From NCBI RefSeq assembly GCF_000165735.1, contig NZ_GL538185.1:1-64000 (forward strand): a stretch of DNA of 64,000 nt. Direction: 5' to 3'. This document shows, piece after piece, positions 5,085 through 26,572 of the stretch (positions are counted from its first letter, which is position 1; the number at the start of each line of letters is the position of its first letter). A program made the position numbers and the translations under genes. Source of the stretch: Megasphaera micronuciformis F0359 (GTDB taxonomy: Bacteria > Bacillota > Negativicutes > Veillonellales > Megasphaeraceae). The notes under the pieces are model-generated. The model was not told the origin of the DNA and did not search any database. It worked only from the letters and a program-made list of their open reading frames with translations.

Positions 5085-5265
5085 AATGTTGACATTGTTT
5101 ACAAGTCCTATAAATATAGATAAACACTAGTTCTATGCGGCAACATTAGGTGTCAACATTCTAAAAGTTTGTTGACATACCTCTGTCAACATTTTCCTGA
5201 GAATGTTGACAAAATCGGGTAGAATGTTGACGCTTTTCTAACATGTTGACGGTAGAATGTTGACA
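5085..5265. repeat. Cluster of eight TGTTGACA-type repeats (iteron-like)
   Basis: In the 340-bp gap between the VapE-type gene and VRR-NUC the motif AATGTTGACA occurs at 5085, 5202, 5223 (ending G), 5242 (CATGTTGACG) and 5256. There is also TTTGTTGACA at 5168, reversed copies TGTCAACATT at 5151 and 5184, and a partial reversed copy near 5141. Five copies are packed into 5168-5265. Such clusters near a replication initiator are typical of phage origins (iterons) or of operator arrays controlling the downstream leftward genes. The core TTGACA also equals a -35 box. An alternating GCGCGC stretch lies at 4977-5005. Which role applies is not decided by sequence alone. Confidence 0.75.
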
Positions 5266-5279
5266 CATCCCGATATAAA

Positions 5280-12861: not shown

Positions 12862-13311
12862 CTATTCTCCGGTGCTCCCGAATCCGCCTTCACCACGATC
12901 GGTTTGACTTAATTTATCCGCTTCTTCAAACTCTACCGGGATGTTCCTTTCAATAAGGCCCTGCATGAATCGCTCCCCGGCTCGTATCCATTTCGTTGAA
13001 TCTCTTCCTGTTGCCGCCTTGAAGATTCCTCTTACTTCTCCTCGATAGCTGCTATCGATAATCCCGACGCAGTTGGCAAGGAATATTTTCTTTTTCGCTC
13101 CATAGCTACTTCGCATGAAAAGCTTCATGTGGTAGCCTTCAGGAATTTCAAAGGCAAGTCCTGTCCTTACAAGTGTTGCCGGGCCTTTATGCATAGACCT
13201 GATCTCCGTGTCTTCCAGTGCGTAGAAGTCGAAGCAGGCGTTCCCTTGTGTAATAAGGGGTAAGCGGGCCTGGTCGTGAGTCTTTTTTATTTTTATTTTT
13301 AAAGGTTCCAC
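12862..13311 (-). CDS. dut: dUTP diphosphatase (dUTPase)
   Basis: This 149-residue trimeric-type dUTPase hydrolyses dUTP to dUMP, keeping uracil out of phage DNA. Motifs run in order: ACFDFYALED (motif 1), RSSYGAKKKIF (motif 2), VGIIDSSYRGEVRG (motif 3 with the catalytic Asp), ERFMQGLIERN (motif 4) and GEGGFGSTG (motif 5). The start is GTG 13311 behind AAAGGAG. Bases 13176-13213 (codons 33-46) match the single spacer of the mini-CRISPR array at 15267-15376 with three differences. Confidence 0.95.
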   Translation of the reverse strand: MEPLKIKIKKTHDQARLPLITQGNACFDFYALEDTEIRSMHKGPATLVRTGLAFEIPEGYHMKLFMRSSYGAKKKIFLANCVGIIDSSYRGEVRGIFKAATGRDSTKWIRAGERFMQGLIERNIPVEFEEADKLSQTDRGEGGFGSTGE

Positions 13312-14213: not shown

Positions 14214-14228
14214 CTTCTTTTTTAGTGA

Positions 14229-14260
14229 TAAAATCACCTCAAAGAAAGGAGGTGATTTTA
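14229..14260 (+). repeat. Inverted repeat hiding the ribosome site of the next gene
   Basis: TAAAATCACCTC (14229-14240) and GAGGTGATTTTA (14249-14260) are perfect 12-bp complements with an eight-base loop. The right arm contains the GGAGGTGA ribosome site for the TTG start at 14261. If the transcript begins upstream, the site would be paired and translation reduced. The shorter palindrome GTGATAAAATCAC at 14225-14237 overlaps the left arm and could instead be a protein-binding site. Confidence 0.55.
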
Positions 14261-14557
14261 TTGGCTAATGTTTACCACTTTCGAGACTTGTCTCAGGAGA
14301 TGCAGGCTGCCTTGATTAAATACATCAAATCGCACTTCACGGTTCGCCCCAGCATAAACCCTTACGTATCTGCGTATGGTCTTAAGCAGCGATTTACTCG
14401 TCTTGCGCAATCCCCTGAGCACGTTACATCCCAGTGTTTCGCCGAAGCTATGGAGCTTTGCGGTTTTCGGGCTAAACTCATCGGCGACAAGATAACCCCC
14501 AACTCTAACTGGCGTTTCAACGTTTACGTTCTAAAAAAGCCTCGAGACTTGAAGTAA
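14261..14557 (+). CDS. Small phage protein, paralogue of 14928-15224
   Basis: The product has 98 residues, starting TTG GCT AAT GTT TAC (M-A-N-V-Y) five bases after GGAGGTGA. The sequence VYHFRDLSQEMQAALIKYIK is followed by a part with YVSAYGLKQRF and a C-terminal NWRFNVYVL. The pattern Y-G-L-K ... N-W-x-F recalls a short domain common in small phage early proteins, of no known function. It is about 69% identical (67 of 97 positions by hand) to the gene at 14928-15224. It converges on the minus-strand gene 14517-14858, overlapping it by 41 bp. Confidence 0.6.
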   Translation: MANVYHFRDLSQEMQAALIKYIKSHFTVRPSINPYVSAYGLKQRFTRLAQSPEHVTSQCFAEAMELCGFRAKLIGDKITPNSNWRFNVYVLKKPRDLK

Positions 14558-14878: not shown

Positions 14879-14908
14879 TTGTAAATCACTACGGTTTCAC
14901 GGTATAAT
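14879..14908 (+). promoter_or_regulatory. Promoter for 14928-15224 and perhaps the mini-CRISPR array
   Basis: A perfect -10 box TATAAT (14903-14908) has TTGTAA (14879-14884) 18 bp upstream. Transcription would start near 14915, just before the ribosome site GGGAGGTGG, and could read on into the repeat-spacer unit at 15267-15376, since only a weak hairpin lies between. Confidence 0.6.
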
Positions 14909-14927
14909 GCCCGTATGGGAGGTGGTT

Positions 14928-15224
14928 ATGGTGGTAAGGGTTTACCACTTTAGGGATTTATCCCCTGAGATGCAGCGTGCCTTGATTAAATACATCAAGT
15001 CGCACTTTACGATTCGCTCCAGTATTAACCCTTACGTATCTGCGTACGGGCTTATGCAGCCGTTTATTCACGCAGTGCGCTCTGAGGAGCGCATCACTTC
15101 CCGGTGTTTTACCGAAGCCATGGAGCTCTGCGGCTTTCGGTCCAGGCCCATTGAAAATACAATCCACTCCGAGCCTAACTGGAGATTTAACGTTTATGTC
15201 TTACAAACCCCTCGAGACTTGTAA
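14928..15224 (+). CDS. Small phage protein, paralogue of 14261-14557
   Basis: A 98-residue product with VYHFRDLSPEMQRALIKYIK, YVSAYGLMQPF and NWRFNVYVL, the same architecture as the gene at 14261. ATG 14928 lies five bases after GGAGG. The next codon GTG 14931 is eight bases away and lines up better with the paralogue start, so either could be used. It has its own TATAAT promoter. The stop codon is 42 bp upstream of the first CRISPR-type repeat. No function known; differences from the paralogue are concentrated in the middle and before the NWRF end. Confidence 0.6.
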   Translation: MVVRVYHFRDLSPEMQRALIKYIKSHFTIRSSINPYVSAYGLMQPFIHAVRSEERITSRCFTEAMELCGFRSRPIENTIHSEPNWRFNVYVLQTPRDL

Positions 15225-15266: not shown

Positions 15267-15376
15267 AATTGGTTTACTGTTGCCCCGTAAGGGGACGGAA
15301 ACTTGCCGGGCCTTTATGCATAGACCTGCTCTCTGTGTCCGATTTAATCACCGTTACCCCGTAAGGGGACGGAAAC
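15267..15376 (+). CRISPR. Phage-borne mini-CRISPR array: two repeats, one spacer
   Basis: Repeat 1 (15267-15302) and repeat 2 (15341-15376) are both taken as 36 nt. The last 20 bases, CCCCGTAAGGGGACGGAAAC, are identical; the first 16 differ at seven positions, so repeat 1 is partly degenerate. Each has the CCCC-GTAA-GGGG palindrome and ends GGAAAC, giving an 8-nt handle ACGGAAAC as in type I or type III systems. The 38-nt spacer (15303-15340) matches 13176-13213 in the dUTPase gene at 35 of 38 positions, with the first 26 bases identical. No cas gene is in the window, so host Cas proteins would be needed. An extra GGAAAC copy follows repeat 2. Both repeat and spacer lengths are normal for CRISPR. 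Confidence 0.8.
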
Positions 15377-15383
15377 GGAAACA

Positions 15384-15614
15384 CTATTTAAAGTTGTGTC
15401 GAGCCAGTTTCAGTAGCTCTTCACGAATACCTCTATCAGCCAAGGAGTACAACAAGCTTAAGCGTTCCTGCTCGTCATCAATATCGCTAAGGTACTTCCT
15501 GGTTGTTTCTGCTATTCGCTCTCTAATCTCGATGTAAAGATGTAACAGTTTCAAGTGTTTCCTACTGTTAAACGGAGCTTCGTCCATACGAAGCTCTTTT
15601 TCTTTTTCTTCCAT
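15384..15614 (-). CDS. Small charged helical phage protein
   Basis: The product has 76 residues, strongly helical and charged: MEEKEKELRMDEAPF, KLLHLYIEIRERIAETTRKYL, ERLSLLYSLADRGIREELLKL. A GGAG-type site precedes ATG 15614. The stop lies only seven bases beyond repeat 2 of the mini-array on the other strand. A 16-bp operator-like dyad (15641-15656) sits just upstream, so it is probably controlled by the phage repressors. No known family. Confidence 0.5.
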   Translation of the reverse strand: MEEKEKELRMDEAPFNSRKHLKLLHLYIEIRERIAETTRKYLSDIDDEQERLSLLYSLADRGIREELLKLARHNFK

Positions 15615-15640: not shown

Positions 15641-15656
15641 GTTTATCATGTTAAAC
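15641..15656. promoter_or_regulatory. Repressor operator-like dyad 1
   Basis: GTTTATCATGTTAAAC is a near-perfect 16-bp palindrome. The same element, in reverse orientation, occurs at 15884-15899 between the two repressor genes, with a weaker copy at 15940-15955. This copy lies between the XRE gene stop and the start of the small gene at 15384-15614, where it could control that gene. Confidence 0.6.
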
Positions 15657-15857
15657 TTATTCTGTAAAAAAAATAGAACATAGTCTTTCGTCAAGCGCAT
15701 CAGCTATTTTAGTTAAAGTGTTGGTTCTAACAACCTTTATTGAACCATTTTCTATTCCAACAATAATTGTTCTAGCTACGTGTGCTTGATGAGCTAATTC
15801 GGCCTGGGTTAGACCGGCCGCTTCTCTTACCTCTTTTAACCGATTAGGTATTCCCAT
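15657..15857 (-). CDS. XRE-family regulator, probable Cro-like protein
   Basis: This 66-residue helix-turn-helix protein (RLKEVREAAGLTQAELAHQA, then RTIIVGIENGSIKVVRTNTLTKIADAL) contains only the DNA-binding domain. It is divergent from the LexA-like repressor gene and first in the leftward early direction, the position of Cro in temperate phages. GAGGAGG precedes ATG 15857. Cro-like function is inferred from position. Confidence 0.8.
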   Translation of the reverse strand: MGIPNRLKEVREAAGLTQAELAHQAHVARTIIVGIENGSIKVVRTNTLTKIADALDERLCSIFFTE

Positions 15858-15883
15858 CTACTCACCTCCTCTGATTGTCACAA

Positions 15884-15955
15884 GTTTAACATGATAAACT
15901 ATGATTGTCAACAATGTTAAACATAAATCTTGTAAATTTGTTTATCATGCTGTAC
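15884..15955. promoter_or_regulatory. Divergent operator/promoter region of the immunity switch
   Basis: The gap between the two regulators holds GTTTAACATGATAAAC at 15884-15899, GTTTATCATGCTGTAC at 15940-15955 and a half-site TGTTAAACAT at 15915-15924. The dyads share the consensus GTTTAWCATGWTAAAC with the copy at 15641. This spacing of full and half sites is expected for a CI/Cro lysis-lysogeny switch. Confidence 0.65.
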
Positions 15956-15984: not shown

Positions 15985-16641
15985 ATGGAGAATATAGGAG
16001 ATTTAATTAGAGAATATCGCCAAAGCCATGGGCTGAGTATGGAAGAGTTTGGGAAACGAGTTGGATTGAGCAAGGCATATATATCACTAATAGAACGCGG
16101 CAAAAACACTCGTTCAAACAAACCCATCGTGCCTTCTATTGATACCATGAAGGCTATTGCCGATGGGCTTGAAATGGATTTAGATGTTCTTTTAAGATCC
16201 ATTGACCCTTCCCAGAAAATTAAAATCAACAATACTCACCCCAAAGGAGTCCAAATCCCCGTACTTGGCAGAGTCGTAGCGGGAGTGCCCTTAGAAGCCG
16301 TCGAGGAGATTCTAGATTACGAAGAGATCACACCGGAGCTTGCGGCAACGGGGGAGTTTTTTGCCTTACAGATTCGCGGCCGATCTATGGAGCCACGGAT
16401 GCTTGAGGGCGATGTAGTGATAGTTAGGCGTCAAAGTGACGTGGACTCCGGAGATATCGCAATTGTCCTAGTAAACGGCGATGAGGCTACCGTTAAACGA
16501 GTCAGTAAGTCCGATAGAGGTATTACCCTTATCGCTACCAACCCAAACGTATACGAGCCACACTTTTACTCCAGTGAAGAAATAAACGACCTTCCCGTTC
16601 AGATCCTAGGGAAAGTCGTTGAGTTGAGGGGGAAACTTTAA
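15985..16641 (+). CDS. LexA/CI-like phage repressor with S24 peptidase domain
   Basis: The 218-residue protein has an N-terminal XRE domain (LIREYRQSHGLSMEEFGKRV, AYISLIERGKNTRS) and a C-terminal S24 autoprotease. The cleavage site is Ala-Gly in GRVVAGVPLEA near residue 98. The catalytic Ser is in QIRGRSMEPRM, and the Lys in DEATVKRVSK. RecA-stimulated self-cleavage would induce the phage after DNA damage. The start has GAGG upstream. It presumably binds the GTTTAWCATGWTAAAC dyads. Confidence 0.9.
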   Translation: MENIGDLIREYRQSHGLSMEEFGKRVGLSKAYISLIERGKNTRSNKPIVPSIDTMKAIADGLEMDLDVLLRSIDPSQKIKINNTHPKGVQIPVLGRVVAGVPLEAVEEILDYEEITPELAATGEFFALQIRGRSMEPRMLEGDVVIVRRQSDVDSGDIAIVLVNGDEATVKRVSKSDRGITLIATNPNVYEPHFYSSEEINDLPVQILGKVVELRGKL

Positions 16642-19407: not shown

Positions 19408-20493
19408 ATGTCTAAAATCAAAAAACGTCCTGACGGACGCTATGTAATGACATTTACCACTAACGGCAAGCGTAGATATTTCTACGGGCGTACCCGATCG
19501 GAAGCACAGGCCAAGTATGACGAATTTATAAAAAAGTCCGAAAACCTGGCTAACTTTGATGGGAATATTACTATAGCCGAATGGGCGAAAGAGTGGTTGA
19601 GAATCAAAGAACCTTCTATAACACCCAGCACCCTCGATAGCTACCGAAATGTTATTCGTCATTATATTGTTCCCGAAATTGGGACCATTAAACTTGTTGA
19701 CTTAACAGCTCCGACAATTCGCCGACTGCTTACCATAAAGATGGAGACCCTCTCCAGTCGTACCGTTCGATATATCCATACGCTCTTAAACGCTATGTTA
19801 AAACAGGCTGTCTTGGATGAAATTATCGCTACTAATGCAGCCGCTAAGGTCCGCAAGCCTAAACTACACAGGACAAAAGAAATGGTGACGCTAACGGCTG
19901 ATGAGGTCAAATTATTTTTGTCTAAGATCCCAATCCCTGAGCACCATATGCTGTTCAAATTGGCTTTCGCCTCCGGACTTCGTCGGTCAGAACTTTTAGG
20001 GCTGCCGTGGTCGAATGTAGACCTTGATAAGAAAACTATCACGATCACACAGACCGTCATAAAGATAGATAATGAGGCGGTTATATCAGAAACGACCAAA
20101 AACGCCTCTTCCAGACGTTCTATAACGCTTGACGACGAAACTATCGCCGAGCTCAAAAAACACGCGCAGAGAGTAAAAGCAACGCGATTGGCATCACCTA
20201 ATTGGGTTCACAACGATTTAGTTTTTCCCGGCAAAGACGGAAAACCTATATTCCCTGACTCAGTCTCCCAACTTTGTAAGAGATACGCTGCCCAAATTGG
20301 AAAGCCTTCCTTTTCTATGCACGGGACCAGACATACCCACGCCACTCTTCTTATTGAGGCTGGAGTGAATTTTAAAGTAATTCAAGTACGCCTTGGGCAT
20401 TCATCATTTACAGAAACAATGAATACCTATTCACACCTGACCCCTACTATGGAATACGATGCCGTAGAGAAGATAGAACAAATTTTATCGTAA
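19408..20493 (+). CDS. int: Phage tyrosine integrase
   Basis: The 361-residue protein has an N-terminal arm-binding domain (KRPDGRYVMTFTTNGKRRYF), a core-binding SAM-like domain (ITIAEWAKEWLRIKEPSI) and the catalytic domain with Arg in FASGLRRSELLGLPW, H-x-x-R in HGTRHTHATLL, His in RLGHSSFTETM and the Tyr nucleophile in NTYSHL. It inserts and excises the phage at its attachment site. Gene end and tRNA-Leu 3' end face each other 80 bp apart. AAAGGAGC precedes ATG 19408. Confidence 0.95.
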   Translation: MSKIKKRPDGRYVMTFTTNGKRRYFYGRTRSEAQAKYDEFIKKSENLANFDGNITIAEWAKEWLRIKEPSITPSTLDSYRNVIRHYIVPEIGTIKLVDLTAPTIRRLLTIKMETLSSRTVRYIHTLLNAMLKQAVLDEIIATNAAAKVRKPKLHRTKEMVTLTADEVKLFLSKIPIPEHHMLFKLAFASGLRRSELLGLPWSNVDLDKKTITITQTVIKIDNEAVISETTKNASSRRSITLDDETIAELKKHAQRVKATRLASPNWVHNDLVFPGKDGKPIFPDSVSQLCKRYAAQIGKPSFSMHGTRHTHATLLIEAGVNFKVIQVRLGHSSFTETMNTYSHLTPTMEYDAVEKIEQILS

Positions 20494-25843: not shown

Positions 25844-26572
25844 TCAAACTCGGCTGCCGAATTTCACGGCAACCACAAATTTCGGCAAAGCAAGCATACG
25901 CATAGCTCGACTCGGTTCCTTGTACAGGCGGTAAAGCCATTCAAGACGATGTTCCTGCATCCACTTGGGGGCTCGACATACATGACCGGCCAATACATCG
26001 AAGGTACCGCCTACACCCATGCACACACAAGGTCCCAATTCATATAAATGACGATGTATCCACTTTTCCTGCTTCGGTACGCCGAGAGCTACGAATAAAA
26101 CAGATGCCCCCGAATTCCGTATATCTTCAATGATTTTCGGCTCTTCTTCAGGCGTAAAAAAGCCGGACCGAATACCAACAACGGGAAATTCGCCCACCGA
26201 CTCTTTCATATTTCGAGCCGCCTTTTCGGCAATTCCCGGAGCCCCGCCGAAGAAATATACCTTTGTCTGTCTTTCAACACAACGGGCCATAATCCGACAA
26301 GCTAAATCTACGCCGGCAACTCGTTCTTTGAAATGTTTTCCTTGTTGTTCCGCTGCCCAAAGCACTCCGGCTCCGTCGGGCACGACCAAGTCGGCTTCCG
26401 CCAAAATACGGGCCAACTCGTGATCTTCTTTGGCCCTCATAATCATTTCCGCATTGGCTGTAGCGACAGTCGTCGCTCGACCTTCGGCGATGCGGGAAAA
26501 GACAAAATCCGTCGCTTCGTCCATCGATACATTACGAACGGGAACGGACAATATTTCTATGGTCTCTTCCAT
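25844..26572 (-). CDS. WecG/TagA/CpsF-family glycosyltransferase
   Basis: The 242-residue protein has VATANAEMIMRAKED, DLVVPDGAGVLWAAE, ERVAGVDLACRIM, KVYFFGGAPGIAEKAA and the end MQEHRLEWLYRLYKEPSRAMRM, all typical of the GT26 family that adds ManNAc or similar sugars to lipid-linked carriers. The catalytic Asp lies in VPDGAG. It probably works in an envelope polysaccharide pathway. GGAGG precedes the start. Confidence 0.9.
   Translation of the reverse strand: MEETIEILSVPVRNVSMDEATDFVFSRIAEGRATTVATANAEMIMRAKEDHELARILAEADLVVPDGAGVLWAAEQQGKHFKERVAGVDLACRIMARCVERQTKVYFFGGAPGIAEKAARNMKESVGEFPVVGIRSGFFTPEEEPKIIEDIRNSGASVLFVALGVPKQEKWIHRHLYELGPCVCMGVGGTFDVLAGHVCRAPKWMQEHRLEWLYRLYKEPSRAMRMLALPKFVVAVKFGSRV

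Follow-up and report, generated by a model that had tools for sequence, protein, structure and literature searches.

A prophage-borne mini-CRISPR array in Megasphaera micronuciformis with host-like type III-A repeats and a spacer closely similar to the prophage's own dUTPase gene

The window analysed here is a 64,000-nt stretch of Megasphaera micronuciformis F0359 (contig NZ_GL538185.1, positions 1 to 64,000) and contains a prophage recognisable by an integrase, a CI-like repressor, a Cro-like regulator and replication genes (Table 1). The contig begins at window position 1 and the left part of the prophage is therefore absent from it. The leftwards-transcribed prophage genes code for a dUTPase, an exonuclease, an SSB-like protein, a DNA polymerase and helicases. 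On the strand opposite to this lytic operon, and near the CI/Cro switch, lies a short unit of two CRISPR repeats and a single spacer.

Table 1. Features of the mini-array and of the surrounding prophage (window coordinates).
Feature	Coordinates	Strand	Remarks
dUTPase gene (phrog_135)	12862..13311	-	149 aa, intact; in leftward early/replication block
Near-protospacer in dUTPase gene	13176..13213	+	35/38 vs spacer
Promoter-like site (TTGTAA-18-TATAAT)	14879..14908	+	Upstream of ORF 14907-15224 and mini-array; consensus match only
Small ORF, annotated without function	14907..15224	+	Directly upstream of array, same strand; paralogue of 14225-14557
CRISPR repeat 1	15267..15302	+	36 nt; 30/36 vs host repeat; divergence confined to 5′ 16 nt; hairpin and 8-nt handle ACGGAAAC intact
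Single spacer	15303..15340	+	38 nt; host spacers 34-41 nt
CRISPR repeat 2	15341..15376	+	35/36 vs host chromosomal repeat GATTTAATTACCGTTACCCCGTAAGGGGACGGAAAC
Terminator-like hairpin with T-run	15574..15597	+	Downstream of array; consensus match only
Operator-like sequence GTTTATCATGTTAAACTT	15641..15658		Upstream of leftward genes
Cro-like HTH regulator	15657..15857	-	First leftward gene
Second operator-like copy, inverted	15882..15899		Between Cro-like and CI-like genes
CI-like repressor (phrog_4)	15985..16641	+	
Integrase (phrog_1)	19408..20493	+	Right end of prophage

The two repeats share an identical 3′ 20 nt (CCCCGTAAGGGGACGGAAAC), a motif confined to them within the 64-kb window (chance expectation 0). 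The 3′ half, with the hairpin and the handle, is intact in both; repeat 1 has diverged in its 5′ half, and its hairpin can still fold despite the substitutions. The annotated genes in the prophage portion covered by this contig include no cas genes, and inspection by eye of the sequence preceding the array revealed no leader resembling that of the host. The preliminary description, of two 36-nt repeats with an identical 20-nt end and a 38-nt spacer in a prophage, with no cas genes near the array, is exact. A virus-borne mini-array lies in a viral genome, lacks cas genes, and has one or two spacers bracketed by repeats that match a host CRISPR array. The element at 15267–15376 has one such spacer, no cas genes in the contig's part of the prophage, and repeats matching the host array at 35/36 and 30/36 positions; it is a real mini-array.

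The mini-array and the small ORF preceding it are flanked by the promoter-like and terminator-like sites, and the operator-like copies are found only at the leftward genes, with none at the promoter-like site at 14879–14908. This arrangement suggests that the leftward genes, including the dUTPase gene, would be repressed in the lysogen and that the rightward unit could be transcribed. Among named records, the nearest homologues of this small ORF include one in Megasphaera sp. MJR8396C, and no mini-array is present at the loci L129–L132 of the same ORF. A third copy of the two paralogous small ORFs (14225–14557 and 14907–15224) is located elsewhere in the host (L022:676–1008, contig C7), and a hairpin at 14226–14263 covers the GGAGGTGAT ribosome-binding site of ORF 14225–14557, with possible translational control. 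A 25-nt repeat (AGAATGTTGACA...) occurs in two copies (5200–5224 and 5254–5278) just past the end of the helicase/primase gene.

The host genome (1.76 Mb, 37 contigs, 98% complete) contains one contig, C37, with about 31 repeats carrying the motif of the mini-array, and the chromosomal repeat is GATTTAATTACCGTTACCCCGTAAGGGGACGGAAAC. The repeats of three sister species match those of the mini-array at 23–28/35 positions, compared with 35/36 and 30/36 for the host, which ties the mini-array to this particular host; the species-specific 5′ half of the repeat is common to the host array and the mini-array. Adjoining the C37 array are cas1, cas2, cas10 (with an HD domain), csm2, csm3, csm4, csm5, cas6 and csm6, and the locus is a complete type III-A system, with its cas10, csm2–csm5, cas6 and csm6 set next to an array of the same repeat as the mini-array. 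A single cas1 and no type I Cas5 were found in the host genome, making the III-A system the only evident user of the mini-array, although at 98% completeness a second CRISPR locus lacking cas1 and Cas5 is not fully excluded. The search proposed beforehand for cas genes and for arrays with the same repeat thus leads to this locus, and Cas proteins are available in the host as had been supposed. No spacer of the host array matches the prophage, and the alignments found comprise repeat sequence only. The host array contains one spacer (GATAAGTGTAAGTAAGTTACATAGTGTCTGTTCTT) twice, at C37:25931–25965 and 26327–26361. A lone copy of the repeat 3′ half (CCCCATAAGGGGACGGAAAC; 19/20) is located at C7:2659–2678 (L022), just upstream of a leftward gene, within a mobile element with recombinase, Abi_2, RhuM and HTH genes that also carries the third small ORF copy, and is a possible solitary repeat unit.

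The spacer closely resembles the prophage's own dUTPase gene, differing at spacer positions 27, 32 and 38. The match of 35/38 claimed in the preliminary description is reproduced, and the best match of 300 shuffled spacers scored across the 64 kb is ≤25/38. Its codon reading is also correct: two of the three differences are silent and lie at third codon positions (Glu33 GAA/GAG and Thr35 ACG/ACA), and the third changes Ile37 to Ser. Placing the handle ACGGAAAC 5′ to the spacer gives a crRNA that is antisense to the dUTPase message, the orientation needed by type III systems, and the flank of the near-protospacer pairs with the handle at only 1/8 positions, so that the dUTPase target would count as foreign rather than self-protected. 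On the prophage's own dUTPase mRNA, uninterrupted pairing begins at the handle side and continues for 26 bases, and all three mismatches are handle-distal. The guide thus has the properties of a III-A guide, antisense to a transcript whose flank is not complementary to the handle.

A scan of IMG/VR with the repeat family identified three additional viruses that have one or two spacers, and every spacer nearly matches nearby DNA of its own virus; this is a small sample, in which L026 and L029 represent almost one and the same virus. The two L068 spacers match L068 genes at 32/37 and 33/35 positions, and the seven differing bases leave the encoded peptides identical. The L026/L029 spacer matches its own sequence at 25/29 positions, with the L026 unit being the least certain (three mismatches in the first repeat and a spacer of only 29 nt), and the L027 spacer differs from its target, which is outside any clear gene, by one substitution and a two-base gap. 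Among all coding targets pooled, 10/14 differences are at codon position 3 (p about 0.004), and the spacers accordingly look like homologous gene sequences, as if derived from related phages. The guide is antisense in every coding target (L068 twice, L026 and the window), as are the weaker matches in two longer arrays (L123 and L125). When longer arrays on viral contigs are considered as a whole, the majority of their spacers have no such matches to own sequence, and a seeming match of L079 to itself was rejected as an artefact of masking. A search for relatives of the L068 guides returned L068 alone. Lone related repeats are present on three other viral contigs (L057:6756, reverse strand; L061:2052; L081:6848) and are candidate RNA anti-CRISPRs; that of L057 sits between hairpin arms.

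A source for the window spacer was sought in four collections. Degenerate scans found no exact or near-exact protospacer in IMG/VR besides the window's own sites or an identical copy, and none in 84,980 GTDB species genomes besides the own site, with chance-level matches elsewhere; a three-mismatch scan of the host family returned only the window's own two sites, and blastn against INPHARED gave no exact or near-exact match. Strain-level prophages are poorly covered by all four, and the expected related phage with a perfect 38-nt dUTPase match was not found in them. The IMG/VR copy (L028/L030) is identical DNA to the window and was rejected as an independent occurrence. Isolated 'repeats' scattered over the sister genomes G004, G013 and G014 were likewise discarded, as those that were read are 16S rRNA containing CCCCGTGAGGGGACGGAAAC; this 16S rRNA sequence (L033, L037 and L038) is one base off the CRISPR repeat motif and can mislead scans for the repeat. 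The nearest relatives have prophage-type dUTPases that are 57–65% identical, and no mini-array is present at the nearest related dUTPase loci (L086–L088 and G007). Residue 37 is aliphatic in the nearest dUTPases and the spacer would encode Ser, such that a natural source with exactly the spacer's sequence is not assured. The proposal that the codon-aware pattern betrays the dUTPase gene of a related phage is weak for this spacer taken alone (2/3 differences) and gains from the 10/14 seen across viruses with coding targets; no perfectly matching phage was found for it in the four collections.

The favoured interpretation, to which about even chances are given, is that the leaderless prophage mini-array borrows the host III-A system and has the exclusion of related phages as its main function. 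The rightward unit would be transcribed in the lysogen, probably together with ORF 14907–15224, and host Cas6 would cleave both repeats to yield one crRNA with the handle ACGGAAAC and a predicted 5′ start of ACGGAAAC-TTGCCGGGCC; the 38-nt spacer is within the host range of 34–41 nt. Loaded onto the host Csm complex, this crRNA would recognise the early dUTPase mRNA of an incoming related phage, and Csm would cleave the message and trigger Cas10 and Csm6, excluding the superinfecting relative. The prophage's own dUTPase would be spared mainly by its silence in the lysogen and less by the three mismatches. In staphylococcal III-A immunity, up to six mismatches left targeting in the lytic cycle intact and silent prophages were tolerated (PMC5754349), and in a second study loss of handle-distal pairing had no effect (PMC9704408). 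Because III-A systems sense RNA and tolerate distal mismatches (PMC5754349, PMC9704408), the machinery would be predicted to target the dUTPase transcript of the prophage as well, and targeting of rivals only is not established. By transfer from these other III-A systems, self-sparing by mismatch is doubtful and self-sparing by silence is the better-supported idea, and with such tolerance the prophage should suffer from the array in its own lytic cycle if the array is neither switched off nor inhibited. As to the earlier suggestion of phage–phage exclusion by host Cas proteins, the host-repeat mini-array and the available Cas machinery speak for it, whereas neither rivals-only targeting nor a perfectly matching relative has been borne out.

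The same guide could instead serve the prophage itself, by acting on its own dUTPase or early lytic transcript: Csm would cut mRNA arising from leaky expression and thereby stabilise lysogeny or time lysis, the mismatches softening the response. The 26-base pairing next to a non-self flank, the III-A tolerance of such mismatches (PMC5754349, PMC9704408), the recurrence of near-matches to own genes with antisense guides in every coding target examined, and the location of the array close to the CI/Cro switch, on the strand opposite to the lytic genes, are all consistent with such self-regulation; however, III-A recognition also fires Cas10 and Csm6, which would be a harsh control of an own gene, and the third-codon differences point to homologous genes rather than to tuned self-guides, and the proposal is considered unlikely. 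A broader reading, in which a class of prophage mini-arrays has guides that are antisense, with imperfect pairing, to mRNAs of the prophages' own early genes and drives host III-A systems as a self-directed regulator or lysogeny guard, and not only as a weapon against relatives, is less likely still. The array may also be a relic, a repeat–spacer–repeat unit gained by recombination with a host array that once targeted relatives of the phage, and no longer expressed. Recombination with host arrays is a published model of origin (PMC6858448), and the degraded 5′ half of repeat 1 and the lack of a host-like leader recognisable by eye would fit, but hairpins and handle are intact in both repeats and the arrangement recurs in other viruses, making a relic improbable. 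Quite unlikely is an RNA decoy, a repeat transcript that occupies Cas6 or Csm and lowers host III-A immunity with little regard to the spacer, as phage solitary repeats do for type I-F (PMC10651486): the preservation of the 3′ half in both repeats with drift in the 5′ half of repeat 1, the lone repeat 3′ half in the host's second mobile element and the lone repeats on viral contigs (e.g. L057, L061 and L081) would suit it, but a full-length spacer with a 35/38 phage-gene match would be superfluous, and such spacers occur in four viruses.

Exclusion of relatives through a borrowed host system has precedents. Published phage and prophage mini-arrays use repeats of the host, lack a leader and carry spacers directed at related viruses; these spacers often closely resemble a sequence of the carrier itself (PMC6858448, PMC7099407, PMC11656645). 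Such bacterial examples having been published, the window array would not be the first outside archaea (PMC6858448, PMC7099407, PMC11656645). It is a clean bacterial case: the repeat of the host and the one CRISPR type found there are known, as are the targeted gene and the strand concerned, and inter-phage exclusion by a borrowed CRISPR system is hence directly testable. The III-A machinery also sharpens the question of self-targeting, since on induction the guide should direct the host's mismatch-tolerant RNA sensor against the dUTPase message of the prophage itself.

Among known systems, the RNA anti-CRISPRs formed by solitary repeat units (Racrs) share a phage-borne copy of a host repeat without cas genes, but have a single repeat with no spacer (PMC10651486); the window has two repeats and a 38-nt phage-matching spacer and is thus no solitary repeat. 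In conditional prophage tolerance by III-A, a spacer with mismatches to a gene of a silent resident prophage is likewise involved, although that spacer is in the host III-A system and the window spacer is carried by the prophage (PMC5754349). The mini-arrays of the Sulfolobales portogloboviruses SPV1 and SPV2 similarly rely on the CRISPR system of their host for the exclusion of a related virus, but have host-like leaders and reciprocal targets and belong to non-lytic archaeal viruses (PMC6858448). Closest are the phage and prophage mini-arrays of Faure et al. 2019, as these are described where cited (PMC6858448, PMC7099407), which combine host-identical repeats with one or two spacers, lack both cas genes and a leader, and have a spacer near-identical rather than identical to the carrier's own sequence. 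Compared with that description, the window array differs in that no relative with a perfect match to its spacer was found in the four collections and that its only evident host machinery is III-A, which is RNA-sensing and mismatch tolerant, and this III-A dependence makes it unusual among virus-borne mini-arrays.
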